NCBI GenBank assembly: GCA_016182495.1
Contig: JACPGK010000029.1
Location: 1 to 44,218, forward strand
DNA: 44,218 bases
Reading direction: 5' to 3'
Source of the DNA: Candidatus Kerfeldbacteria bacterium
GTDB taxonomy: Bacteria; Patescibacteriota; Patescibacteriia; UBA9570
Shown here in pieces: positions 1-27,304 of this stretch. The notes below the pieces were generated by a model, which made no database searches, was not told the DNA's origin, and was given only the letters and a program-made list of their open reading frames with translations. The stretch's first letter is position 1. Each line of letters begins with the position of its first letter. The translations under genes and the position numbers were made by a program.

Positions 1-676
1 AGTCGCGAATGCAGACGTTGTCGCTGTATTCGCCGTTCTGGTAGTACAGGTGGGGGTCGTTGGTGGCGGTGCCGATGAAGGAGCCGTAGCTGGTCTTCAC
101 CGCAGAGATCTCGCTGCTGTAGTCGGTGCAGTCGATCTGGTGGGAGGTGATGAAGTCGGTGGGGTCGTACCAGTTGGCGGTGTTCGTTCCCCTACCATAG
201 AAGACCCAGGAACCCGAGTAGGATCCGTAGTAGATCCCGAAGTGCAGGTGTGGACCTCCATCGCCGTTTTCATCATCGTAGCCAGCATAGCCGATCACAT
301 CGCCTTGGCTCACGTCGCCGCTGGTCTTGAGACCTTCCGACCTCATGTGTCCACTGACAGAGTACACAATGTCTCCGTCGGGAAGCTCATGCTCGATCAC
401 CACGACGTACCCGTAGCTCTCGTGCCACCCAGTGATGGGAGAAGGCACGATGTGCCCGTTGGCAGAAGCGTAGATGGGATCGAGTGCAGCAGCGGTCGCG
501 TCCTCACCGAGATGCAGGACATCGCTTGAGACCGTATCACCGAAGTCGTAGCCGGTGACGTTGTAGTTGGGGACGGGGAACTCGAAGCTGCTCGCGATGT
601 CTGCCGCTTCAGAGTTGTTGGTGAGCCCGAGCATCACGAAGATGCTGAGCAGGAAGATACGAACGTACCGTTCCAT
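1..676 (-). CDS. Secreted M23 (LytM-type) metallopeptidase, 3' end cut off by the window
   Basis: The reading frame opens at the ATG at 676 and runs off the left edge, so 225 residues are visible. Residues 1-25 form a signal peptide (hydrophobic core, then SEA before ADIA). The M23 zinc site is recognisable: HLGED (H55, D59), GHM (H110) and PHLHFG (H143, H145). Members of this family cut peptide cross-links in peptidoglycan or other glycine-rich peptides outside the cytoplasm. A GGAGAAC ribosome-binding site lies 4 nt before the ATG, unlike nearly every other gene here. The DNA is clearly richer in G+C (roughly 55-62% in lines sampled by eye) than the rest, which suggests transfer or a chimeric contig end. 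The family call is secure; the C-terminal part and the true host are unknown. Confidence 0.85.
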   Translation of the reverse strand, partial: MERYVRIFLLSIFVMLGLTNNSEAADIASSFEFPVPNYNVTGYDFGDTVSSDVLHLGEDATAAALDPIYASANGHIVPSPITGWHESYGYVVVIEHELPDGDIVYSVSGHMRSEGLKTSGDVSQGDVIGYAGYDDENGDGGPHLHFGIYYGSYSGSWVFYGRGTNTANWYDPTDFITSHQIDCTDYSSEISAVKTSYGSFIGTATNDPHLYYQNGEYSDNVCIRD

Positions 677-5087: not shown

Positions 5088-8000
5088 TTAGTGAGCTGAA
5101 CTAGTTAAGGCAGCTTTTCGTTTTTTTAATTGCAGTACAATCGAAATCAATACTGCCAGTAAGGCTATCCCGATATTAACAATCACTAACCAGGTAGTGT
5201 TCGATAAACGGTTTTCTTGTTGAATCACGAACCGAGCCACTTCAACTTGTTGTCCACGAGCACCATTAATTTCGCCACTGGCATAGACGGTATGATCACC
5301 AACGGCTAACAGTTCAGCGGGGATGGTCATGGTCCAGCGTCCCTGATCATCGGCTTGAGCGATTTTCACCACTGGCGTTGAAAAAGTGGTAATAATAACG
5401 TACTGTGGTTGACCACGCACAATCTTGACTGCATCGGTTTGCTCGTTAAAATCACCAGACAATATTATCCGGGTAGTATCGCTATCGGGAGTAATGCTGC
5501 CGCCTTGTAGCCAGGCCAAAATATCACTGATGCCAATTTCATTACGTACTTTTACCACCCAAGTTTGTCCAGCAGTAACAGAACTGAATTCACCCGGGAT
5601 AATATTAACTTTAGTATTTTTTATATCATTATCTAATTGTTGTACCAAAGCACTATGCTGTTCGGCTGTTAATGGTACGGCCTGTTTGGTAATATATGGA
5701 TAATTGGCTGGGGTGGGTTTACCACTATACGCAGCAGTCGCAAATTGCTGTAAGGTTTGTTCTAATTGATCAGTAGCTGCTACCACTATCACATCAAGAT
5801 TATCAGCCACGCCATCACCATCACTATCAGCCGAGCAAGCTAAGGTACCACGGGCCGCTTCATCACCGTCAGCAATACTATCATCATCACTATCCCAATC
5901 GTTGGGATCAGGACAATCAGTGGCTTCATCACCATCAACTAAGCCATCGTCATCGGAATCAGGGTCCAATGGGTTAGTATCACGCACTAATTCATTGGCA
6001 TCATCCGAACCATCAACGTCGGTATCATTATTGCTGGGATTTGTACCTAGAGTAATTTCTTGACCATCATTCAAGCTGTCATCATCCGTATCGGCATCAA
6101 TGGGATCTGTCTCGAGAATAACTTCGTCACCATCACTTAAATTATCATCATCCGTATCGGCATCAGTCGGATCGGTTTGATACCGGGGTTCTTCGCTATC
6201 GGCTAAACCATCACCATCGGTATCGACAATGCCAGTAGTAGTATCAGGGTTATCGGCTTTGATTGGGTTGGTGTGTTGCTGTTGTTCAGTGCCATCATTA
6301 ACGGTGTCGCCATCGGTATCAGGCACAGTGGGATCGGTGCCATAGTATTGCTCCAAACCATCAGTCAGGCCATCGTTATCGGTATCGGATTGATCTGGAT
6401 TAGTTTGTAAGACTTGTTCGGTAATATTATCAACGCCGTCGTTATCATTATCATGGTCGGCTGTATCCGGTACACCATCGTTATCACTATCAGTGGGTGT
6501 TTCAGTCGGTGTCACTGGTTCTGGTTCTGGTTCTGGCTCTGGACTAACCACCACTGGTTTGGGACGATAGGTAGTAAAATTAAAATCCACTTTGCGTGAG
6601 CGTAAACCAAGGCTATTACGATTGCGTAACTGAATGGTTTGCTCACCTAGTTTAGTAATAAACTCACTTAAATCAATAATTTGTTTACCAGCGCTATATT
6701 GACCATGATAAATTAATCGATCATTATTAAACACCTCTAGCTGATGATCGTTTGGTCCAAGCACTGTAATGATTGGGGCAAATAGAGCAAAGCGTTGATG
6801 ATCGGCTGGATCAATCACTGCGGGATCAACTGGTCGGTGAGTGCGAAATACTGGATAATCTAATTGACTAATAATGTTACCGGCTGGATCACGATCAATG
6901 ATGGTAACATAGGTTACGCCAATCGGCAGTTGCACTAACTGTAAAGAAAATTGCCAGGTGGTAATACCATCTGTAGCTGGTGCCACTACGGCCATCATAT
7001 CGCCATCAATGCCTGGTATACGAACAGCGATAGTGTGTTTGGCTGTAGTAATACCGGTGAAAGTTGGATTAGCCGTGTAGGTAATACGATTCCAGTACTC
7101 ATTGCTACGACTATCGGTCACAAACGTAGTATCGGTTTGACCACTAATAATCATCACTTGACTAGTAGTGCCGCCATCACTGCCTTCGGCCGTCAGGGTA
7201 AATTCTTCCGGTGTTAGCCCAAAGGGTGGCTGACAACTAGCCACGTTATCAACGGTTTCACCAACACAGTGATGTACATAATTACCTGCGCTATCCGTCA
7301 CTGTAAATGTAACGCTGGTATCAACGGTAGTAGCCATATACTGCTCTGGCATACCGTAGGAAATAATAGTAGCTGGAGTAATAATAGTAGGTGGGCCAGA
7401 TACTACTGTAAAATTAAACCGCGGTTGTAAACCAGATGGATTGGTGTAGGCAGCGCTATTTTTAGCTACTAACCCCGTGTACACTTTATACCGTTCTTTT
7501 AATTTTAATAAATCTTTCGAGATATTAAATTCTACCAATTGTTTTTTGGTAAAAGCTTCTTTACGATTATAAATTTCTTTGGCCTGATTCTGTTTATTTT
7601 TATTAATCTGATCAATCACCAAATGCACGCGCTGATCAATAAATTTTGCCTTACCGTCGAAAGCAAAGGTTAAATCACCACGTTGTAAATTAATAACAGC
7701 AGTAGTGTTATCAGTGGTAATAGTGTTGCCACTACCATCAGTAATACGTATATCAGTAACCACTGCTTCGGCGTCGGCGTCGGTTTTGGTGAGAGTGGTA
7801 AAGGTTTGATCAGTGGATTCAGCAGTATTACCTGCCTCGTCTACTGATACTATACGGTAGTGATACGTGGTGTTAGCTTCTAAACCGGTAAGGGTGAGTG
7901 AATGATTCTTAACTAAGGTATCGTTGAGTTCAATTTCGCCATAGCTATCTGTAGTACCGTACTCTACCTGACTAGTAGCTAGCTCGTCAGTGCTCCAAGT

Positions 8001-10307
8001 AATAACAGCCTCATTTGCCGTAATGCCGCCGCTGGCTGTATTTGATAGCACTGGCGCTGTCACATCACCGGAATCATCAGTCAATAGTGTAGTAAACGAA
8101 TAAATCGTATCGCCGGTATCAGCATAATTCAACGCATTAGTCGTATCATCAGACCGAGCACTGTGATAATACGTTGTATTGGGCGACAAATCAGTAATGG
8201 TATAACTATGACTAGTGACTGATTCGGTTGTATTGCCAACTAAGGTTGGATTGGTAAGATCGACATTACTGGTATATCCTATCTTAGTGTTTCCAGCGAT
8301 AGTGGTTGTCCAGGTAATGGTGGCCGTAGTGCTGGTAGTTGTAGCCGCGATATCGCTTAACGTCATGGAAGTAGTTGGTTGCAGATCATTCACAAACCTA
8401 GCGGTACCGCTAGATGTACTAGCGGTAAAAAATACAGTGTGATAGCTTGATAAATCTCGTTCCAGGCGCCAGTTATCTGCTGCTACTTCGGCTTGGGCAA
8501 TAAAGGCAACGTCACCAGTGGCAGAGGTTCGACCATACACATCAACTACTGTTCCGGTAGCGCCGGTACCACTAATTTCATCAGCTGTATGTAGTGTGGC
8601 CGTGAGCGCTGATACCGGGGCAGTAGCACCGACCGTGTAGGTAATAAAATTATCAACCTCATCAAGATTAAAAGTATTCTCGCGAATCACGACATTTGAA
8701 AAAAAAGTAGTACCTTGAATTTCCACTGCGCTGTTCGCATCACGAAAAGTATTGCCGCTACCTGAACTCAATAAAGTTGCGCCAATTATAATGTTATCTG
8801 AATCACCAGAAACGACTAAGCCACTATTGGTGATATCTTCAATAGTATTATTAGTGTAGGTGATACTATCACTGTTATCATTTTGGATACCGGCATGAGA
8901 ATTACCGGCGCTAATACTATTACCTGTAACGGTAGTGTTGGTAGTGTTATGAATTGAAAACACTATGCCATCAACATTAGTGATGATATTACTCACAATA
9001 GAGATGGCTGAACTGCCATTATCAGTGCGAATAGCTTGAGAGTAGGATGATGCGGCAGCGTTTGTGCCAGTAAAGTTTTGAATGGTATTATCTTCCACTG
9101 CACTATTGGTAACGCCTTGTAAATTGATAGCGATATCAGCCCCACTGGTACCGGTAAAGGTATTACCGTTGATGGTTAAATCATCAGCGCCGGAAGCATA
9201 AATAGTATTACCTTCAATACTGCTAAAAGTATTGATACTGATATAGGTTCCAGTGCCATCAATTACGCTAATAGCACCGTTACCCGTGCCGCTGGTAAAG
9301 GTGTTAGGGCGAATACTTGTGCCATCTTCATCATAACCAATCATGGCTTGGGCATCATCGTACATAAAAATGCAGTAATTGCCACAATCGGTAAAGGTAT
9401 TAGTGCCAAGCAAGGCGTTTTCTCCACCGGCAATACTAATGGCATTATTAATGCTACTGAAGGTGGTATTTTTAATCACTACATTATCAACCGCTCCAAA
9501 ATTAATTCCGGTTTGAGTGATGTTATTACCAGTAATGGTGGAACTATCTATTTTAGCAGTAGCGCTTAAGGTGATGCCATCGGATTGATTGCTTTCTAAG
9601 GTAACACCGCGAATAATAGCCCCGCCGCCGGCTCCACCCACCGCCAAACCAGTGGTGGTACAATTTTTAATTGTAATACTGTTTACTGTAATGTTGGTCG
9701 CATTTAAGCTTAAACCGGTATCGATGGTATTATTACAATTCAATTCGACGGTGTTAGTGCTGCCATTAATTAATAAATTAGCAGCGGTGGCATTAAGAGT
9801 ACTGGTGAGAGTGATAGCGGTGTTACCAGAAAAAGTAATCACATCGCTTGCTGCTGCCACAGCCAAGGCTTCTCGTAAGGTGCAATCACCCGGGGCACTA
9901 TCACAACTACCATCGTTATCATCGTTGGCTGAATTCACTACCAAACTAGCTGCCAATACTTGTGGCGTAGTATCTTGCCGCACAATAAATCGAAAAAATG
10001 ATGTTACAAAGATAACACTGGTCACTAATACCAAAGAATACGATAGTGTGCCAAAACGTAGATTATGTTTCCAGCGCCGATGAGCAATATACGATGCCTG
10101 ATAGCCTTTAGTCTGATCCAGCGGATGAAAATGTTCAAAACTTTCTTGCGGTGGCAAAAATAAAGCCGCCAAAGCATGCTGGCAGGCTAACATGATATAA
10201 AAACCTAATAAAATCAAGGCTAATAATAGACGATACCCAATACCATGGCTTGATTGACGCAAACTGTTTTCGCAGCTATTGATTTGAGCCTGTAACCAGC
10301 GACGCAT
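5088..10307 (-). CDS. Giant cell-surface protein: CSLREA segment, beta-helix, FnIII domains, TSP3-type Ca-binding repeats
   Basis: The product has 1739 residues. Two hydrophobic segments lie near the N-terminus (about 25-50 and 83-109). A CSLREA-type start (SCDSAPGDCTLREAL, about 134-148) leads into a long right-handed beta-helix (about 160-590) built of N-[TS]-rich rungs. Two fibronectin type III domains follow (about 650-745 and 755-845), then further Ig-like stretches, a short Pro-Glu linker, and about a dozen acidic DxDxDG(L/V)xDxxE repeats (about 1270-1500) that should bind calcium. An Ig-like domain and one membrane helix (about 1706-1725) with a KKRK tail end the protein. It is predicted to be an anchored exposed protein for attachment or glycan contact; the ligand is unknown. 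A strong promoter puts the transcript start about 3 nt before the ATG. Confidence 0.85.
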   Translation of the reverse strand: MRRWLQAQINSCENSLRQSSHGIGYRLLLALILLGFYIMLACQHALAALFLPPQESFEHFHPLDQTKGYQASYIAHRRWKHNLRFGTLSYSLVLVTSVIFVTSFFRFIVRQDTTPQVLAASLVVNSANDDNDGSCDSAPGDCTLREALAVAAASDVITFSGNTAITLTSTLNATAANLLINGSTNTVELNCNNTIDTGLSLNATNITVNSITIKNCTTTGLAVGGAGGGAIIRGVTLESNQSDGITLSATAKIDSSTITGNNITQTGINFGAVDNVVIKNTTFSSINNAISIAGGENALLGTNTFTDCGNYCIFMYDDAQAMIGYDEDGTSIRPNTFTSGTGNGAISVIDGTGTYISINTFSSIEGNTIYASGADDLTINGNTFTGTSGADIAINLQGVTNSAVEDNTIQNFTGTNAAASSYSQAIRTDNGSSAISIVSNIITNVDGIVFSIHNTTNTTVTGNSISAGNSHAGIQNDNSDSITYTNNTIEDITNSGLVVSGDSDNIIIGATLLSSGSGNTFRDANSAVEIQGTTFFSNVVIRENTFNLDEVDNFITYTVGATAPVSALTATLHTADEISGTGATGTVVDVYGRTSATGDVAFIAQAEVAADNWRLERDLSSYHTVFFTASTSSGTARFVNDLQPTTSMTLSDIAATTTSTTATITWTTTIAGNTKIGYTSNVDLTNPTLVGNTTESVTSHSYTITDLSPNTTYYHSARSDDTTNALNYADTGDTIYSFTTLLTDDSGDVTAPVLSNTASGGITANEAVITWSTDELATSQVEYGTTDSYGEIELNDTLVKNHSLTLTGLEANTTYHYRIVSVDEAGNTAESTDQTFTTLTKTDADAEAVVTDIRITDGSGNTITTDNTTAVINLQRGDLTFAFDGKAKFIDQRVHLVIDQINKNKQNQAKEIYNRKEAFTKKQLVEFNISKDLLKLKERYKVYTGLVAKNSAAYTNPSGLQPRFNFTVVSGPPTIITPATIISYGMPEQYMATTVDTSVTFTVTDSAGNYVHHCVGETVDNVASCQPPFGLTPEEFTLTAEGSDGGTTSQVMIISGQTDTTFVTDSRSNEYWNRITYTANPTFTGITTAKHTIAVRIPGIDGDMMAVVAPATDGITTWQFSLQLVQLPIGVTYVTIIDRDPAGNIISQLDYPVFRTHRPVDPAVIDPADHQRFALFAPIITVLGPNDHQLEVFNNDRLIYHGQYSAGKQIIDLSEFITKLGEQTIQLRNRNSLGLRSRKVDFNFTTYRPKPVVVSPEPEPEPEPVTPTETPTDSDNDGVPDTADHDNDNDGVDNITEQVLQTNPDQSDTDNDGLTDGLEQYYGTDPTVPDTDGDTVNDGTEQQQHTNPIKADNPDTTTGIVDTDGDGLADSEEPRYQTDPTDADTDDDNLSDGDEVILETDPIDADTDDDSLNDGQEITLGTNPSNNDTDVDGSDDANELVRDTNPLDPDSDDDGLVDGDEATDCPDPNDWDSDDDSIADGDEAARGTLACSADSDGDGVADNLDVIVVAATDQLEQTLQQFATAAYSGKPTPANYPYITKQAVPLTAEQHSALVQQLDNDIKNTKVNIIPGEFSSVTAGQTWVVKVRNEIGISDILAWLQGGSITPDSDTTRIILSGDFNEQTDAVKIVRGQPQYVIITTFSTPVVKIAQADDQGRWTMTIPAELLAVGDHTVYASGEINGARGQQVEVARFVIQQENRLSNTTWLVIVNIGIALLAVLISIVLQLKKRKAALTSSAH
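5800..6500 (-). repeat. Coding repeats: thrombospondin type 3-like calcium-binding array
   Basis: This is the DNA for the acidic repeat region of the giant surface protein. Units of roughly 12-30 codons carry D-[ST]-D-x-D-G-[LV]-x-D-[GS]-x-E. The nucleotide repeats have diverged but keep a visible period (ATCATCATC/CATCACCATC-like runs on the plus strand). It is not a CRISPR or tandem satellite. Confidence 0.85.
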
Positions 10308-17416: not shown

Positions 17417-20400
17417 ATGCATGAGCTGTTAGCACCACTTAACGAACCGCAACGACAAGCCGTACTGGCCACCGATGGACCAGTTTTAATTTTAGCTGGC
17501 GCCGGTTCAGGAAAAACCAAAACGTTAATTCATCGCTTGGCCTATTTAATTGCTATAGGTAAGGCTAAGCCTACAGAAATTTTAGCGGTAACGTTTACGA
17601 ATAAAGCCGCTGGAGAATTGCGCGATCGTTTGACTGCACTGTTGAATCACAAAGTGCGTAGTTGGCCGACGTTGGGAACATTTCATAGTGTTTGCGTACA
17701 AATTTTACGTCGCGAAATTGCCACACTGGGCTATAGCAATCACTTTGTGATTTATGATGCTGATGATAGTTTGCGTTTGCTCAAAAAAGTCATCAAAGAT
17801 TTAGGATTTGATCCGAAAACAGTATCACCCACCTTAGTACAGGCCCTGATTAGTCGAGCCAAAAATAGTTTGTACACACCAGACCAGTATGCCAATGTGG
17901 TTGATTCGCCCCTGGAACAAACCGTGGCCCAAGTGTACCAAGGATATCAAACGGAACTACACACTAATAATGCTTTGGATTTTGACGATTTGATTCGATT
18001 AACTGTTGCCTTGTTTAGGGATAACACCTCCATTTTAAAAAAATACCAACAAGCCTGGCGTTATATTTTAGTTGATGAGTATCAAGATACCAACCATGCA
18101 CAATACAGCTTAGTAGAGCTGCTCGCTCAAGAACATCAAAACTTATGTGTGGTGGGCGATGATTTTCAATGTGTTACTCCTAATACTAAAATTAAGATAC
18201 CGAGTGGTTGGAAGCGTGCCAAAGATATTCAAATTGGCGATAAAATTATTGCTGGTGGTGGCAGAAATTCCACGCTCACTACTACGATTAAAAAAAAATA
18301 CAGCCGTACGGTGACAACTGATTTGTTTCAAATAACAACTAAACAAGGTCATACGGTAAAGTTGACACCCAGACATATAGTGTTTGCATCTCTATCAAAC
18401 CAATCGTTATATTATTATGTTTATTTAATGTATCGACAAACCCTAGGCTATAGAATTGGTTTAGTACAAGGTAAACGCACCAGCAGTGGCCGTACGCAAC
18501 ATGGTTTACAAGTACGCGGTAATCAAGAACGAGCTGATAAAATGTGGATTATACGGGTATGTACAAACAAACAAGAGGCACAGTATTGGGAAATGTATTA
18601 TGCTTTTTACTATGGTATTCCCACGACTGTTTTTAGTCCTGATAATCTAACATCAATTGGCCGTCAGGAAATTAATCAATTATTTCAAAATATTAATACA
18701 GCCGAACGAGTTGAACAACTATGCCAAGACCTCTATTTAGATCTAGACTTTCCGCATTATCGCCCGTCTGGAACGACGCGCTTTAAAACTGAACGAAAAG
18801 TTTTACGACTTGATTGGTTTGCCGATACACGACGATCAACTGCTTCGCCGTGGTGTGCTACCCGGGTTGCGTTGCATACTACGAATGCCCAATTGAAACG
18901 AACTGTCGTTAAGCACGGCTATAGTGCTCGACGCTCTAAAAAAAACACCTGGCGCTTAGAACTGACCCGCCTGAAGATTGCTGCAGCTGAACAAGAAGCC
19001 AAAAAATTACAGTTATTGTTGCCTGGTGTTGAAATGGTACGTTCAGCTTGGCTGACAGATACGAAAAAAATGTTATTAATGCCAGCGGCGCACTTACGCG
19101 TTTCGATGTTGTTGCCAATATTAAAAAATAATAAAATTATCGCTGATGAAATTGTTGCTGTAAAAAAAATGCCGTATCATGGCCCGGTGATTGATATAGA
19201 CGTTCAGACAGTTCATAACTACTGTGCCAATGGAGTGATGATACATAACTCTATTTATTCTTGGCGCGGCGCTAATCTGCAAAATATTTTAGATTTCGAA
19301 GATGATTATCCAAAAGCCACCGTGGTGGTGTTAGAACAAAACTATCGATCAACCCAATCTATTTTAGCGGCTGCTAATGAGGTAATTAAGTATAACACTA
19401 AACAAAAAGATAAAACATTATGGACCGAGAATGGCCGTGGTGAAAAAATTATTGTGCAGGTAGTACCAGATGAACGAGCTGAAGGAGAATATATTATTGC
19501 CGAAATTTTTGGGCTCACTACTACTGAACGTGCGGCGGGAGATGAGCTAAATGAAATCCAGTATGTTCGTGAGAATGAACCGACGCCAGCGGCATCAATG
19601 TTAGATCGTATTATGCACAGTCGATCATTTCAACAACAGCAACGGGCTATTCACTGGCAACATTCTATTCAACAACGGTTACGCCAGCTTAAACTATCTG
19701 ATTACGTTGTACTGTATCGTACCAATGCCCAATCGCGAGCCCTAGAAGAATCCTTTTTAAAATACCATGTACCGTACCGGATTATTGGCGGCATCACCTT
19801 TTATCAACGCCGCGAAGTGAAAGATGTCATCGCCTATCTACGAGTAGTGGTGAATCCAGCTGATTGGGTGAGTTTAGAACGAATCATTGCTGTGCCGGCT
19901 CGAGCGCTTGGCCCAAACAGTTGGCAAAAAATTGAACAGGCTTGCCGCCAACAGCATTGTACCTATTTAGAAATTACACCGGAACAATTGCCTAGCCTAC
20001 GCCAACAACAGCGTGAAGCCTTTGCACAGTTCCAAACCATCATGCAAGCCATTACCAAACAAGCCGCTAAGCTTACTCCGTCAGAGACACTTGAATTACT
20101 GTTACGTAAAACTGGCTTGCGTGATCAATATACCAGTAAAAATCGGGATGATCTGGCTCGCTTAGAAAATATTGAGGAATTAAAATCCGTTACTAAGCGC
20201 TTTGACCATACAGTAGGTAGTGACGGTTTGCATGCTTTTTTAGAAGAGGTTAGTTTAGTATCCGATCAAGATCAACTAGATGATACTCACAATGCCGTGA
20301 ACTTAATGACGGTGCATGCGGCCAAAGGTCTAGAGTTTCCGCAAGTATTTATTACTGGTTTGGAAGAGGGTTTATTTCCGCACGCTCGCAGCTTATTTAA

Positions 20401-20587
20401 TCCGATTGAAATGGAAGAAGAACGTCGCTTATGTTATGTGGCCATTACTCGGGCGAAACACCATTTATACTTAAGTTACGCCCGCCAACGCACCGTGTAT
20501 GGTAAAACACAAATTACGGCGCCATCGCGTTTTATTGCCGACATTCCTGAACAATTACTTGATCACCGCGACCCAGACGGTGTATGA
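17417..20587 (+). CDS. pcrA: UvrD/PcrA-type DNA helicase interrupted by an intein
   Basis: This superfamily 1A 3'-5' helicase acts in nucleotide excision repair and in clearing replication blocks. The translated product is 1056 residues, of which 252-611 are an intein; the spliced helicase would be 696 residues, close to the family length. Motif I is AGAGSGKTKT (28-37), motif Ia FTNKAAGEL, motif II VDEYQDTN (about 221-228), and motif III GDDFQ/SIYSWRGA is split by the intein. Motif IV is YRTNAQSRALEE, motif V VNLMTVHAAKGLEF, and motif VI EEERRLCYVAITRAK. The C-terminus is shorter than in typical PcrA and lacks the usual tail. Promoter placement supports the ATG at 17417. It is followed 12 nt later by a membrane-protein gene. 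Confidence 0.95.
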   Translation: MHELLAPLNEPQRQAVLATDGPVLILAGAGSGKTKTLIHRLAYLIAIGKAKPTEILAVTFTNKAAGELRDRLTALLNHKVRSWPTLGTFHSVCVQILRREIATLGYSNHFVIYDADDSLRLLKKVIKDLGFDPKTVSPTLVQALISRAKNSLYTPDQYANVVDSPLEQTVAQVYQGYQTELHTNNALDFDDLIRLTVALFRDNTSILKKYQQAWRYILVDEYQDTNHAQYSLVELLAQEHQNLCVVGDDFQCVTPNTKIKIPSGWKRAKDIQIGDKIIAGGGRNSTLTTTIKKKYSRTVTTDLFQITTKQGHTVKLTPRHIVFASLSNQSLYYYVYLMYRQTLGYRIGLVQGKRTSSGRTQHGLQVRGNQERADKMWIIRVCTNKQEAQYWEMYYAFYYGIPTTVFSPDNLTSIGRQEINQLFQNINTAERVEQLCQDLYLDLDFPHYRPSGTTRFKTERKVLRLDWFADTRRSTASPWCATRVALHTTNAQLKRTVVKHGYSARRSKKNTWRLELTRLKIAAAEQEAKKLQLLLPGVEMVRSAWLTDTKKMLLMPAAHLRVSMLLPILKNNKIIADEIVAVKKMPYHGPVIDIDVQTVHNYCANGVMIHNSIYSWRGANLQNILDFEDDYPKATVVVLEQNYRSTQSILAAANEVIKYNTKQKDKTLWTENGRGEKIIVQVVPDERAEGEYIIAEIFGLTTTERAAGDELNEIQYVRENEPTPAASMLDRIMHSRSFQQQQRAIHWQHSIQQRLRQLKLSDYVVLYRTNAQSRALEESFLKYHVPYRIIGGITFYQRREVKDVIAYLRVVVNPADWVSLERIIAVPARALGPNSWQKIEQACRQQHCTYLEITPEQLPSLRQQQREAFAQFQTIMQAITKQAAKLTPSETLELLLRKTGLRDQYTSKNRDDLARLENIEELKSVTKRFDHTVGSDGLHAFLEEVSLVSDQDQLDDTHNAVNLMTVHAAKGLEFPQVFITGLEEGLFPHARSLFNPIEMEEERRLCYVAITRAKHHLYLSYARQRTVYGKTQITAPSRFIADIPEQLLDHRDPDGV
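18170..19249 (+). mobile_element. In-frame intein in pcrA (360 residues), possible GIY-YIG-like endonuclease domain
   Basis: The intein starts at Cys252 (CVTPNTKIKIPSGW, block A) and ends VIDIDVQTVHNYCANGVMIHN (blocks F and G) before extein Ser612. Block B is GHTVKLTPRHIVF with the TxxH residues. It sits between Q and S of helicase motif III, a conserved ATPase site of the kind inteins favour. No LAGLIDADG motif is seen. Instead YYVYLMYR...GYRIG followed by a downstream Arg-rich stretch and YWEMYYAFYYGIP resembles the GIY-YIG arrangement. All residues for self-splicing appear present: Cys1, block B His, terminal HN, and +1 Ser. Confidence 0.9.
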
Positions 20588-22425: not shown

Positions 22426-22809
22426 ATGAATGTGACGGCGTTAATGCACTACTGCCAGGTGCAATCAGCAAAAAAATGGAATACTGCTACAGCCTTATTG
22501 CGATCAAAACGATACGCTGATTGTTTATTCTTTTGTCATTTGACTTTAGAGTTTGCTCTTAAAGAAAAGGTAGTGAAAGTTACACAAAAACCTTTTCCCA
22601 TGACTCATGATTTGTCAGACTTAGCAATAAAAGCTCATTTGATGCTAACGACTGAACAGAAAGAGCAGTTGGCTATCATTAATACATTCAATATAGCCGG
22701 ACGATATGATGATTATAAATTGTCATTTTATAAAAAAGCTAAGTCGGTATTTACAAAAAAATATTTTGATATTACAAACCATTTTTTAGTATGGCTAAAA
22801 AAAATATAA
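22426..22809 (+). CDS. HEPN-domain protein, partner of the adjacent nucleotidyltransferase
   Basis: The 127-residue all-helical protein matches the HEPN pattern: WNTATALLRSKRYADCLFFCHLTLEFALKEKVV (the A..LL..G.Y..A.F..H.A.E..LK theme), a middle THDLSDLAIK segment and a last helix after AGRYDDYKLSFY. HEPN proteins paired with MNT nucleotidyltransferases act as toxin and antitoxin in type VII systems, or as substrate-binding partners. The RNase motif Rx4-6H common in toxic HEPN proteins is not evident, so toxicity is uncertain. The gene overlaps the nucleotidyltransferase start by 19 nt. Composition is more AT-rich than its neighbours, hinting at transfer. Confidence 0.8.
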   Translation: MNVTALMHYCQVQSAKKWNTATALLRSKRYADCLFFCHLTLEFALKEKVVKVTQKPFPMTHDLSDLAIKAHLMLTTEQKEQLAIINTFNIAGRYDDYKLSFYKKAKSVFTKKYFDITNHFLVWLKKI

Positions 22810-23120
22810 CTTCAAAAAAAAGTAAACGCTTTGCTCAAGAATATGTTGAATATCTTCAGGTTGAACATCATCTACCAATTAAGCAAGCGTATCTATTTGG
22901 ATCGTACGCCAAAAAAAAACAACGTCATTGGAGTGATATTGATGTATGTATTATTTCTCCCGATTTTAAAAAAATTGATCCGCTAGCGTACTTATGGACG
23001 AGACGGCGTGACATTGATATCGAACGTGGCATTGAACCGTATGGCATAGCACCGGAAGATTTTGTTGAAATCAACCCAATTGCCTATGAAGTAAAAAAGT
23101 ATGGTATTACTTTACTCTAG
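22791..23120 (+). CDS. MNT-type minimal nucleotidyltransferase (likely antitoxin)
   Basis: The 109-residue protein has the minimal nucleotidyltransferase core: GSYA (37-40) and SDID (48-51), with the metal-binding Asp49 and Asp51, then a beta-strand VCIISPDF. In known HEPN/MNT pairs this protein modifies the HEPN partner with AMP and silences it. The N-terminus is lysine-rich. The gene overlaps the HEPN gene upstream, and its 3' end overlaps the convergent uvrC stop by 14 nt. All catalytic residues seem present, so this half of the pair looks active while the HEPN half lacks its usual RNase motif. Confidence 0.85.
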   Translation: MAKKNITSKKSKRFAQEYVEYLQVEHHLPIKQAYLFGSYAKKKQRHWSDIDVCIISPDFKKIDPLAYLWTRRRDIDIERGIEPYGIAPEDFVEINPIAYEVKKYGITLL

Positions 23121-24381
23121 TAGATCGCATGGTTTTACGATGCAGTAAACGGTAGTAAGTAATGGCAAAGCGATGGGCTTCATCACGCATGCGCTGAATC
23201 AAAAACAAACCCTGACTACCTGGAGCTAAAATGATTGGTACGGCAGTGGCAGGTTGAAAAATTTCCTCGCGTCGTTTCGCTAACCCAATCACTGGCACCT
23301 GGGCAATTTGCCATAATCCAGCCACAGCACTTAATTGCCCTTTGCCACCATCAATAATAGTTAAATCAGGTAACGGCCAAGTACGGCGCAACCGCCGGGT
23401 AACCACTTCACGTAAACTGGCAAAATCATTTGGGCCTGATACTGTTTTAATTTTAAAACGACGATAATCAGCCTTGGCTGGCAAACCATCTTGAAATACG
23501 ACCATGGAACCGACACTATGACTACCTTGCACATTAGAAATATCATAAATTTCAATACGCTGGGGTGGTTTGTTCAATTGTATGGCGGCAGCTAATTCCA
23601 CTAACCCTTGGGCAGCATCACGTTGACGATGAGCATAATATTCCTGCACATAGCGTTGCGGGGTTTTACGGAGTGATTGTAAAGTGGTGATAGCTTGTAA
23701 CTGATCACGGATCCGAGCAGCTTGTTCGAACTGTTGATGTTGCACCGCTTGTTGCATAGTTTGTTCCAGTCGAGCAACGAATGGTTGAGCATTCCCCTCC
23801 ACACAATCAATCACTTGATCAATCATCGTAGCGTAATCAGCTGCACTAATACCATTAATGCACGGGGCCTGACAGCGCCCCAAATAGTATTCTAAGCACG
23901 GCTTTTTTGGCAGCGTGGTGCAGGTACGATAGGGAAAAATATTATGGAGTAATTTTAAAAAAGCACGCAAACTGCGAGCAAATGGATACGGTCCGTACAC
24001 TAACCCACCTTTGGTCAAATTGGGCCGGCGCACCGCTAACACCTGTGGGAATGGTTCGGCAGTAATATGAACGTATAAAAAACTTTTATCATCTTTTGCC
24101 AAAATATTGAAACGAGGCTGAAAATCTTTAATCAACGTATCTTCCAATACCAACGCATCCGTTTCGGTTTTAGCTTCAATCCAATCCACTGTCACGATTT
24201 GTTGTACCATAATGGCTTTGGCATCCGATAAGTCGGTACTGGTTTGAAAATAGGAAGTTACCCGGTGTTTGAGTGACTTGGCTTTGCCCACGTACAGCAC
24301 ATTACCTTGACGGTTTTTGAATAAATATACTCCAGGTTTAGCAGGTAAATTGGCTATTGTATCTTTCAGTGTGTTGATCAT
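23107..24381 (-). CDS. uvrC: UvrC, short form of the excinuclease incision subunit
   Basis: UvrC makes the cuts on both sides of a lesion in nucleotide excision repair, working with UvrA and UvrB. The 424-residue protein has the N-terminal GIY-YIG nuclease (GVYLFKNRQGNVLYVGKAKSL, about 17-37), a Cys-rich part (CLEYYLGRCQAPC), one UVR motif (about 205-230) for UvrB contact, and the RNase H-like domain with DISN, IIDGGKGQ and RDEAHRFA motifs. It ends soon after YYRLLHRK, so the C-terminal tandem HhH DNA-binding domain of standard (~600-residue) UvrC is absent. The gene diverges from uvrA; a 34-bp palindrome covers its start codon. No ribosome-binding site is present. Confidence 0.95.
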   Translation of the reverse strand: MINTLKDTIANLPAKPGVYLFKNRQGNVLYVGKAKSLKHRVTSYFQTSTDLSDAKAIMVQQIVTVDWIEAKTETDALVLEDTLIKDFQPRFNILAKDDKSFLYVHITAEPFPQVLAVRRPNLTKGGLVYGPYPFARSLRAFLKLLHNIFPYRTCTTLPKKPCLEYYLGRCQAPCINGISAADYATMIDQVIDCVEGNAQPFVARLEQTMQQAVQHQQFEQAARIRDQLQAITTLQSLRKTPQRYVQEYYAHRQRDAAQGLVELAAAIQLNKPPQRIEIYDISNVQGSHSVGSMVVFQDGLPAKADYRRFKIKTVSGPNDFASLREVVTRRLRRTWPLPDLTIIDGGKGQLSAVAGLWQIAQVPVIGLAKRREEIFQPATAVPIILAPGSQGLFLIQRMRDEAHRFAITYYRLLHRKTMRSTRVK

Positions 24382-24412
24382 GTAAAGATGTAGTATGCTA
24401 CGTCTTTACATG
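24379..24412. repeat. 34-bp palindrome between uvrC and uvrA; possible operator or mRNA hairpin
   Basis: CATGTAAAGATGTAG (24379-24393), centre TATG, CTACGTCTTTACATG (24398-24412): 15-bp arms differing by one T-for-C. The left arm contains the uvrC start codon (24381). The right arm lies 12 bp before the uvrA -35 box. It could bind a dimeric repressor of both repair genes or, in a longer uvrC transcript, hide the start codon. Confidence 0.7.
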
Positions 24413-24424
24413 ATACCACGCATC

Positions 24425-24453
24425 TTGACCGGCTTACTAACAGCGTGTATACT
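24425..24453 (+). promoter_or_regulatory. Promoter of uvrA
   Basis: TTGACC (24425-24430), 17 bp, TATACT (24448-24453). Ten bases lie between the -10 box and the ATG at 24464, the same geometry as other genes here. Confidence 0.75.
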
Positions 24454-24463
24454 ACTCCCGTTT

Positions 24464-27304
24464 ATGGCCATGAGTAACATGATTGCAATCAAAGGAGCCC
24501 GGGTACATAACCTGAAAAATGTATCAGTTGATATTCCACGAAATAAATTGGTAGTGATTACCGGTTTATCTGGTTCTGGCAAATCATCCTTGGCCTTTGA
24601 TACCATTTATGCCGAGGGTCAGCGCCGTTACGTAGAAAGTTTATCGGCCTATGCTCGCCAATTTTTGGGCTTAATGGATAAACCGGATGTTGATCATATT
24701 GACGGCCTATCGCCAGCCATTTCGATTGACCAAAAAACCACCTCGCATAATCCCCGCTCAACGGTTGGTACGGTTACTGAAATTTATGATTACCTACGCT
24801 TGTTGTATGCCCGCATTGGTATGCCACATTGTCCGAACGATAATGAACCAGTCAGCAAACAAACCATTGGTCAGATCATTGAACAAATTGTGCACTATCC
24901 AACCGATAGTAAAATTTTAATTTTAGCACCGGTGATTCGCGATAAAAAGGGTGAACATAAGGCTATTATCAATGAGGCTCGTAAAGCCGGCTATGTTCGT
25001 ATACGGATTGATGGGGTGATGATGCCAATTGAAGAAGCTGAAGATAAAACCATGGATAAAAAGAAAAAACATTCTATTGATGTGGTAGTAGATCGCGTTA
25101 CCATTAGTACAACACTCGATAAAGAACGGCTGACCGAATCGCTCGAAACGGCTTTAGAACTGGCCAATGGCGTGGTATTAGTGCATAACTCCGATACCGA
25201 AACGGATCAGTTATTTTCGGAAAATTTTGCCTGTGCCAAGTGTCAACTTAACTTTGAAGAATTGGAACCACGCAATTTTTCGTTTAATAGTCCGCACGGG
25301 GCTTGTAACGATTGCACCGGTTTAGGCACTAAGCTAGAGGTGGATGCTGATTTAGTGATCCCCAACAAAAAATTATCCATTGCCGAAGGGGCGATTCGGC
25401 CCTGGTCGCGCACGTCATCCAATCAAACCTGGATGATGCGAATTTTAGAAGCGGTGGCGGCGACGCATAATTTTTCACTGCGCGAACCAATCAATACACT
25501 ACCAGCCAAAGCCATACACATTGTACTGTATGGCACCTCTGGACAACAGTACGATGTGAATTCGCCCTTTAGTACAGGCCGGACAGCCGCTTTTTTATCA
25601 CAGTACGAAGGGGTTATTCCAAACCTGGAGCGGCGCTACCGCGAAACCGAATCCGACTACATGCGTTCTGAAATTGAACGGTATATGCGTATTTTTGCCT
25701 GCCCAACCTGCCATGGTAAGCGCTTGAATCCCACTGCTTTAGCGGTAACAGTGAATGACCAATCCATTGCCAGCGTTTGTGCCATGAGTATTGTTGAACT
25801 GCGTAATTATTTTGCAGCCCTTACCCTAACCGCTCGCCAACTGACCATTGCCCAACAAGTGGTAAAAGAAATTCGGGCACGTTTAGAATTTTTACATAAT
25901 GTTGGCTTAGATTATCTTACACTTGATCGGGCGGCGGCCACGCTATCGGGCGGCGAAGCCCAACGGATTCGTTTAGCTACTCAAATTGGTTCGGCCTTAA
26001 CTGGTGTGATTTATATTTTAGATGAACCATCGATTGGTTTGCATCAACGCGATAACGAGCAACTGATTACAACCTTAAAAGCTTTGCGCGATTTAGGTAA
26101 TACCGTCATTGTGGTAGAACACGATGCTGATACCATTATGGCTTCGGATTACGTGGTAGATGTTGGACCCGGCGCGGGTAAGCATGGCGGTGAAATTGTG
26201 GCAGTGGGAACACCGCCAGTCATCATGAAAACCAAGGCCTCACTCACGGGACGATATTTATCCGGCAAAGAAACTATTCCTACTCCCAAACAGTATCGTG
26301 TTGGTAATAAAAAATCACTCACCATTGTAGCGGCTGAAGAATTTAACTTAAAGCAAATTGACGTCACTATTCCTTTAGGCAAGTTGGTGTGCGTTACCGG
26401 TGTATCAGGTTCAGGTAAATCTACTTTGATTATTGATATTTTGGCCAAAGCTTTAGCCCAACATTTTTTTAACGCCAAAGAACATCCCGGCAAGCACAAA
26501 ACCATTGAGGGTTTAGAACAATTAGATAAAGTGATTCATATTGATCAATCTCCCATTGGTCGCACACCGCGCTCGAACTCGGCCACCTATACCGGGGTGT
26601 TTACCTACATACGCGATGTGTTCACTCAAATTCCCGAAGCCAAAATGCGTGGGTATAAAGCCGGCCGATTTTCATTCAATGTTAAGGGCGGCCGGTGTGA
26701 GGCCTGTCAGGGTGATGGCGTGCAACGGATTGAAATGCAGTTATTGCCAGATGTGTATGTGAAATGCGATGAGTGCAAAGGCCGACGCTATAATAAACCA
26801 GCTTTAGAAATTCATTACAAAGGTAAAAATATTGCTGACGTATTGGAAATGACGGTTGAAGAAGCTTTACATTTTTTTGAAAATATTCCAGCCATTCGAG
26901 AAAAACTACAAACCTTATTTGATGTTGGCCTAGGCTACATTCAATTAGGTCAAAATGCTACTACCTTATCGGGTGGCGAAGCTCAACGCATTAAACTCGC
27001 TACTGAATTATCACGCCGGGCTACTGGTAAAACTCTCTATATTTTGGATGAGCCGACGACTGGCTTGCACTTTGCCGATGTTAAACGTTTATTAATAGTG
27101 CTGAATAAACTGGTTGATAAAGGTAATAGTATTATTGTGATTGAACATAATCTCGATGTGATTAAATGTGCCGATTGGCTGATTGATTTGGGGCCTGAAG
27201 GCGGTGAGGCTGGTGGCCAAGTGATTGCTCAAGGCACCCCACGTGATGTGGTGAAAATGCCACAATCATATACCGGTAAATTTTTACACTCGGTGTTGTC
27301 ATGA
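24464..27304 (+). CDS. uvrA: UvrA, excinuclease ABC damage-recognition ATPase
   Basis: UvrA finds bulky DNA lesions and loads UvrB. The open frame extends upstream to 24395, but the promoter lies at 24425-24453, so the ATG at 24464 ([11 protein letters not shown]) is chosen, giving 946 residues; 24470 and 24479 are alternatives. Features include Walker [13 protein letters not shown], a zinc-finger CAKC...CNDC, the first ABC signature [16 protein letters not shown] and [12 protein letters not shown]. The second half has [15 protein letters not shown]...[19 protein letters not shown] and [12 protein letters not shown]. Both ATP sites and both Zn modules look intact. It overlaps the next gene by 4 nt. 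uvrB is not in the window. Confidence 0.97.

Follow-up and report, generated by a model that had tools for sequence, protein, structure and literature searches.

Does the intein that interrupts the pcrA/uvrD helicase gene of this Patescibacteria genome carry a homing nuclease of the GIY-YIG type, as an earlier note made from the DNA letters alone had proposed, and is such an intein an isolated oddity? Within the window, the 44,218-nucleotide stretch analysed here, the open reading frame at 17417..20587 (+ strand; 1056 aa, or 696 aa after splicing) was assigned to PcrA/UvrD by family profiles (TIGR01073, E 2.8e-235, 783 bits, which does not reach the curated cut-off of 911; PF00580, E 1.3e-86). 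It is interrupted by an intein of 360 aa at 18170..19249 (+), which sits in helicase motif III between the Q of GDDFQ and the S of SIYSWRGA. The coordinates given in the earlier note proved exact: the C1 codon lies at 18170, the last Asn codon ends at 19249, and the +1 residue is Ser. The set of splicing residues was likewise as complete as had been claimed, with C1, H69, H359, and N360 present in 44/44 relatives and the +1 Ser in the window. Matches to Pfam Intein_splicing (E 1.7e-11) and the NCBIfam N-terminal splicing region (E 1.1e-5) were also detected, and the insert is, judging by these residues and profiles, a class-1-type intein predicted to self-splice out of PcrA. It was the single intein copy found in the genome (1.3 Mb, 38 contigs). 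GC content differs little between intein (0.397) and extein (0.428) and was therefore left out as evidence.

The surrounding genes were also annotated. Near the PcrA gene, uvrC (23107..24381, −; with a recognised GIY-YIG domain, 1.4e-7) and uvrA (24395..27304, +) adjoin each other in divergent orientation, and a 127-aa HEPN-domain protein (PF05168, 9.6e-11) is encoded at 22426..22809 (+). The product of 5088..10307 (−), 1739 aa long, combines beta-helix, fibronectin III, and TSP3 repeats and probably is a large protein of the cell surface.

An AlphaFold2 model of the whole intein (30 sequences; mean pLDDT 92.7, pTM 0.89) places residues 1–75 and about 301–360 in a Hint fold that is interrupted by two domains. 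The Hint part superposes on Hint/intein structures, at best with Z 22.1 over 138 residues (rmsd 1.8). Its N-terminal splicing half (18170..18394, +) holds C1 and the block B TxxH with T66 and H69, and its C-terminal half (19070..19249, +) ends in H359-N360, directly before the +1 Ser. Between the halves, the model and profile comparison delimit a first module (residues 78–158; 18401..18643, +), the model and alignment a helical linker with a conserved F/Y-P-H segment (residues 165–200; 18662..18769, +; helices within residues 165–188), and the model a second domain of strands and helices (residues 211–293, about 205–295 in all; 18800..19048, +) that may bind DNA.

GIY-YIG domains follow a set order of elements, namely a first Tyr, the YIG motif, an Arg in a helix, and a Glu in a later helix. 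The two strings on which the proposal had been based, YYVYLMYR...GYRIG and YWEMYYAFYYG, are both present in the sequence, and the first Tyr, Arg, and Glu stand in the expected order; the second of the two supposed Tyr motifs does not, since it reads RIG, with Arg at the canonical Tyr position. In the model, Y85, the Tyr of the GIY motif (YVY; 18422..18424, +), lies on strand 1 (residues 82–89), R95-I96-G97 at the YIG position (18452..18460, +) on strand 2 (93–100), the catalytic-type R116 (18515..18517, +) in helix 1 (112–119), and the putative metal-binding E141 (18590..18592, +) in the helix (134–148) that follows strand 3 (124–131). Structure prediction, which the earlier note had put forward as a check, thus returned elements in GIY-YIG order, and the modelled module has GIY-YIG topology (strand-strand-helix-strand-helix) with the motif residues in those elements, as in the fold described in the available text of PMC1564403. 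Conservation was counted over 44 distinct relatives of bacterial, plasmid, or phage origin. One alignment of relatives (A4) was made without the partial locus L083. Strictly invariant were C1, H69, M87, R95, E141, H359, and N360, so that the invariance of M87, R95, and E141 equals that of the splicing residues. Y85, R95, G97, R116, and E141 were kept in 43–44 of the 44 relatives, which is beyond chance (Y85 and R116, 43/44; R95 and E141, 44/44). Y85, G97, and R116 were changed together solely in L080 (4001-5077; Y85C, G97S, R116Q), where the splicing residues are intact, a pattern that fits an apparently decayed homing nuclease. Every conserved motif residue is intact in the window copy.

Profile-profile comparison, another check put forward, linked the module to GIY-YIG. 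By hhalign, the module (39 sequences) matched 27 GIY-YIG sequences with a probability of 87.8% (E 3.3e-6, score 34.3), versus 0.1% for each of LAGLIDADG_3 and HNH; none of 300 column shuffles reached 34.3 (best 21.6), the reversed control gave 2.1%, and Hint-N and the second domain gave 0.1–0.5% against GIY-YIG. A second, distinct subfamily of five inteins matched GIY-YIG with 92.1%. The GIY-YIG comparison set was drawn from PF01541 matches, with 3/30 loci left out, and the other comparison alignments left out 2/16 LAGLIDADG_3 loci and 1/17 HNH loci; of the 30 T5orf172 loci, 2 were used. Run in the other direction, a GIY-YIG HMM matched, at E ≤ 0.01, 25 of the 41 module rows, which comprise 39 sequences and 2 consensus rows, and the lowest E of any control was 1.6 (117 controls given, 104 reported); the window's own module scored −0.3 bits (E 8.9). 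When a profile of five full inteins was searched against 379 genomes, there were three module-region matches outside inteins, and all three were free-standing PF01541 proteins (Pfam E 1.2e-14 or better). The sole Pfam match of the family consensus was to GIY-YIG as well (E 0.048; 14.4 bits vs a cut-off of 22.6). Based on the modelled order of elements, the profile-profile match, the free-standing proteins, and this sub-cut-off consensus match, the first module is best explained as a GIY-YIG-like putative nuclease domain, as the earlier note had supposed.

A LAGLIDADG or HNH fold in the first module was looked for by the same profile-profile comparison and not seen, and on that comparison both identities were rejected.

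Several results nonetheless weigh against full GIY-YIG membership. The YIG Tyr is absent, with Arg in its place, in all 44 relatives; the two best matches of T5orf172 (PF10544), which we take to be a member of the GIY-YIG clan, carry KIG at that position. Pfam scans yielded no GIY-YIG match above the cut-off in any family member covered, and single-sequence searches of Pfam, NCBIfam, PHROGs, and PADLOC recognised the intein/Hint parts but no convincing nuclease in the middle. Sequence searches of the PDB likewise gave Hint/intein matches and no convincing middle-domain nuclease, and the module profile matched no PDB sequence. Because Hint rows filled the Foldseek and VIA lists of the whole intein, the insert was modelled separately (AlphaFold2 pLDDT 89.9). 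Foldseek of this insert against the PDB gave no match at E ≤ 0.001, with GIY-YIG absent among the rows listed, and VIA gave 1zg2 (Z 4.9, rmsd 4.3, 82 aligned, model range 3..218) at a score ranking below second-domain rows, e.g., microcompartment shell proteins and eIF1, in a list filled by such rows, the query holding both domains together. According to the available text of PMC1564403, 1ywl and 1zg2 are Slx1-family GIY-YIG structures, and the C-terminal Asn is absent in the Slx1 family. A GIY-YIG protein encoded in the window's genome matches 1zg2 by sequence. Against two T5orf172 proteins and the window's UvrC, hhalign gave 0.2–0.5%, with very shallow profiles for which the GIY-YIG set itself gave 47% and 28%, so that these comparisons were uninformative; when one GIY-YIG protein of the same genome was compared as a single-sequence profile, the probability was 2.6%. 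In BFVD, three large proteins matched at E ≤ 7.3e-9, one of them called a helicase and all presumably members of the intein family, and GIY-YIG proteins appeared at weak E-values. Given RIG in place of YIG, Pfam matches below the cut-off, and weak PDB matches, we therefore name the module GIY-YIG-like rather than PF01541. The same three observations would suit a non-nuclease alpha/beta domain with a mere resemblance to GIY-YIG, perhaps stabilising the intein or only binding DNA. Such a domain would, however, have to account for profiles that match whichever side is the query while the controls stay clean, for an intein profile that retrieved free-standing GIY-YIG proteins, and for the strict conservation of catalytic-type residues, and we regard it as very unlikely.

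The GIY-YIG-like module is only one part of the middle region, and the second domain, at about residues 205–295, had been left out of the earlier reading. Foldseek with the insert returned many LAGLIDADG meganuclease rows at E 0.04–0.24 (best 0.039), along with phage T4 MotA, and VIA returned PI-PfuI (Z 4.0, insert model 133..208) and I-DmoI (Z 3.9) within a LAGLIDADG range of Z 3.8–4.0. The predicted fold is thus weakly similar to a LAGLIDADG half or to MotA. These matches could suggest a reduced LAGLIDADG nuclease in the second domain as the actual homing enzyme, with the GIY-like module as an accessory, but their VIA scores were tied with or below the microcompartment and eIF1 rows, hhalign of the second domain against LAGLIDADG_3 gave 2.2%, and no LAGLIDADG family occurred among the Pfam matches of 19 members at E ≤ 1. 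Short members without the second domain also keep the GIY-like module, and we accord this alternative hardly any probability. An HNH profile gave 0.1–0.6% by hhalign. The short members are the inteins of SPO1/CampHawk (275 aa), the Thermobispora plasmid (274 aa), the Stanieria plasmid (281 aa), and Vibrio phage RYC (296 aa), and the second domain is absent in loci L047, L048, L052, and L053. Since these members retain the first module, that module is the constant part of the family; they also show a stretch resembling the linker and F/Y-P-H segment.

How far this architecture extends was surveyed in genomes, plasmids, and phages. Full-length relatives were found in 5/285 genomes of the class and 11/379 genomes of the phylum, the window's included in both counts; other matches in these lists were Hint ends alone, save the three free-standing GIY-YIG proteins and two pieces in one genome (G394). 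That genome, with matches on contigs C21, C25, and C30, has one full intein plus two partial matches on other contigs, possibly representing several inteins or a broken assembly. A first scan of genome contigs with the single window sequence gave no match, and a further scan detected 30 loci, all but one of full length, in hosts that include Saccharibacteria, Daviesbacteria, Wolfebacteria, Taylorbacteria, Nomurabacteria, Kazan, and Howlettbacteria, as well as two Anaerolineales, one Phycisphaeraceae, and one Actinobacteria record. Misbinning is possible for these hosts because all records of the 30-locus scan are labelled MAG or uncultured. Phage records yielded 46 matches, of which 37 span 80% or more of the query; most come from coliphages of the phi92/Justusliebigvirus group, SPO1-like Bacillus phages and Vibrio phage RYC gave partial matches, and further partial matches were found on plasmids of Stanieria and Thermobispora. 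With the CampHawk intein as the query, 65 phage records matched, 15 of them from Streptococcus. One scan of viral contigs gave seven loci matching the N-terminal Hint part alone, and another gave none. Based on sequence matches, the intein family appears to occur across Patescibacteria, Chloroflexota, Planctomycetota, plasmids, and phages (SPO1, phi92-like, and Streptococcus prophages).

The motif III insertion site is shared by 41/41 members in the site listing. Deviating sites were read in the Stanieria and Thermobispora plasmids (L047 and L048; GDP or GDS before CQAI), an uncultured 485-kb phage (L051; motif II region), and Vibrio phage RYC (L052; shifted). Outside helicases, Streptococcus phage Javan558 (L206:625-2736), the one Streptococcus record that was read, carries an intein of the same GIY-like type inside an N6/N4 DNA methyltransferase whose N-terminus is ParB-like; the intein stands before CLYGWK. 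A Providencia rettgeri plasmid (L208) has a similar intein-bearing N6/N4 DNA methyltransferase gene, also before CLYGWK. This sequence resembles the SIYSWRG that follows the intein at the helicase site, and such local similarity of targets may have let the intein jump from helicase to methyltransferase.

Intein-free alleles, which the earlier note had suggested seeking in relatives, were read in 7 genomes belonging to the window's order. Each of the 10 genomes covered there matched the C-extein, and 8 besides the window's gave a strong PcrA match (E ≤ 2e-129) with an ORF of 705–740 aa; the uninterrupted motif III site was read in 7/8 of these intein-free orthologues (e.g., GDDYQSIYSWRGA or GDDFQSIYSWRGA), and one (L184) did not match the empty-site pattern. 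With empty sites present and no intein in any of the other 9 genomes of the order, the intein is best seen as a local addition to an otherwise intact gene. Intein and extein trees were built from the same 37 loci (4/41 rows left out). The window intein fell outside a 20-row clade (98/98) holding L071 and L068, whereas the window's PcrA extein grouped with both in a 17-row set (81/84, weak). In AU tests of groups that were picked after the trees were viewed, the intein data rejected window plus L071 (p 0.0009) and the 16-row host-tree clade (p 0.0005), and the extein data rejected the window with L054, L056, and L059 (p 0.0195). Together, the disagreement between trees, the empty alleles, and the patchy spread support horizontal movement of the intein, as would be expected from homing.

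These data also bear on whether the window copy is still active. If the GIY-YIG-like domain were real by descent and this copy no longer cut, the intein having become fixed and now only splicing, then the poor match of the window module to the GIY-YIG HMM (E 8.9), the long branch of the window intein in the intein tree (1.48), and the existence of the decayed relative L080 would all be understandable. We nevertheless judge this unlikely, given that the window copy keeps every conserved motif residue and that none of the order's 9 other genomes has the intein, which is thus not an old fixed copy there.

Instead, we consider it quite probable that the window holds a homing intein composed of a GIY-YIG-like putative nuclease, a helical linker, and a small alpha/beta domain, with cleavage and homing predicted from these parts. 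Under such a scheme, the intein would splice out of PcrA and be freed as a separate protein, which would then bind the uninterrupted motif III sequence of a pcrA/uvrD gene, the linker and second domain probably supplying sequence specificity. The GIY-YIG-like module would cut near the insertion site by means of Y85, R95, R116, and a metal ion bound by E141, and repair from the intein-bearing copy would insert the intein. For the family as a whole, we see about even chances that a separate lineage of inteins acquired a nuclease of GIY-YIG type in which RIG is obligate, independently of LAGLIDADG/HNH inteins; that homing then spread this lineage among the SF1 helicases of phages, plasmids, Patescibacteria, Chloroflexota, Planctomycetota, and Actinobacteria; that it jumped into phage and plasmid DNA methyltransferases with a motif III-like site ((S/C)(I/L)Y(S/G)W); and that longer members gained a second, possibly LAGLIDADG-derived, DNA-targeting domain.

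The nucleases of inteins are mostly LAGLIDADG in the available portions of PMC8966425, PMC6801210, PMC5050341, and PMC7765530, and in the reviewed literature, as far as its accessible text goes, intein homing nucleases are LAGLIDADG and less often HNH. The 2006 superfamily survey (PMC1564403) reports, in its available text, that up to then no intein with a GIY-YIG domain had been found. The expectation that a nuclease of this type in an intein would be unusual agrees with that survey; what does not hold is the idea of a singular oddity, as the intein belongs to a widespread family. Our literature search, which covered journals open to all and the text of some of the papers that mention both inteins and GIY-YIG, found no paper on a GIY-YIG intein, on a GIY-YIG intein in UvrD, or on inteins in Patescibacteria; an earlier description is possible. 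If true, a widespread family of in-frame GIY-YIG-like inteins would represent a further independent union of a splicing element and a nuclease, would explain the unlabelled middle domains of annotated helicase inteins, and would offer candidate enzymes from laboratory phages (SPO1 and the BASEL coliphages). With Arg never varying at the YIG position, there is also the question of how the active site works.

Compared with known systems, the window's intein shares features with each of several groups. Like the LAGLIDADG inteins PI-SceI and PI-PfuI, it has a predicted nuclease nested between Hint halves, with the Hint part superposing at Z 15–22 across the 50 entries listed; unlike theirs, its putative nuclease is of another fold and without a LAGLIDADG profile match. 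Slx1/URI-type GIY-YIG nucleases (PF01541; 1zg2, 1ywl) are the best profile-profile match of the module and share its element order, first Tyr, YIG Gly, helix-1 Arg, and later-helix Glu, whereas the module differs in the Arg at the YIG Tyr, its nesting in an intein, its score below the Pfam cut-off, and, in the main subfamily, an insertion of about 11 residues after strand 2. I-TevI, I-BmoI, and Seg are homing endonucleases of the GIY-YIG type from group I introns and phages, a group treated also in the available text of PMC3943268. With these the intein shares homing logic and a catalytic module joined to separate, here presumptive, DNA-binding parts, although they are free-standing or intron-encoded and the module here lies inside an intein; no NUMOD-type match occurred among the Pfam matches of 19 members. 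A GIY-YIG homing gene is also tied to the AceL NrdHF split intein, described in the available text of PMC7891396 as having an intervening GIY-YIG gene, but there the nuclease lies between two split-intein genes, while the putative one of the window is in frame within one intein. Closest is the UvrD intein of SPO1/CampHawk, which belongs to the same family, occupies the same insertion site, and has the same Y/R/R/E residues as the window's; it is shorter (275 aa), has no second domain, and is annotated as an intein only, its nuclease type being named neither in the SPO1 database record, which notes the UvrD intein, nor in the available text of PMC3868849.
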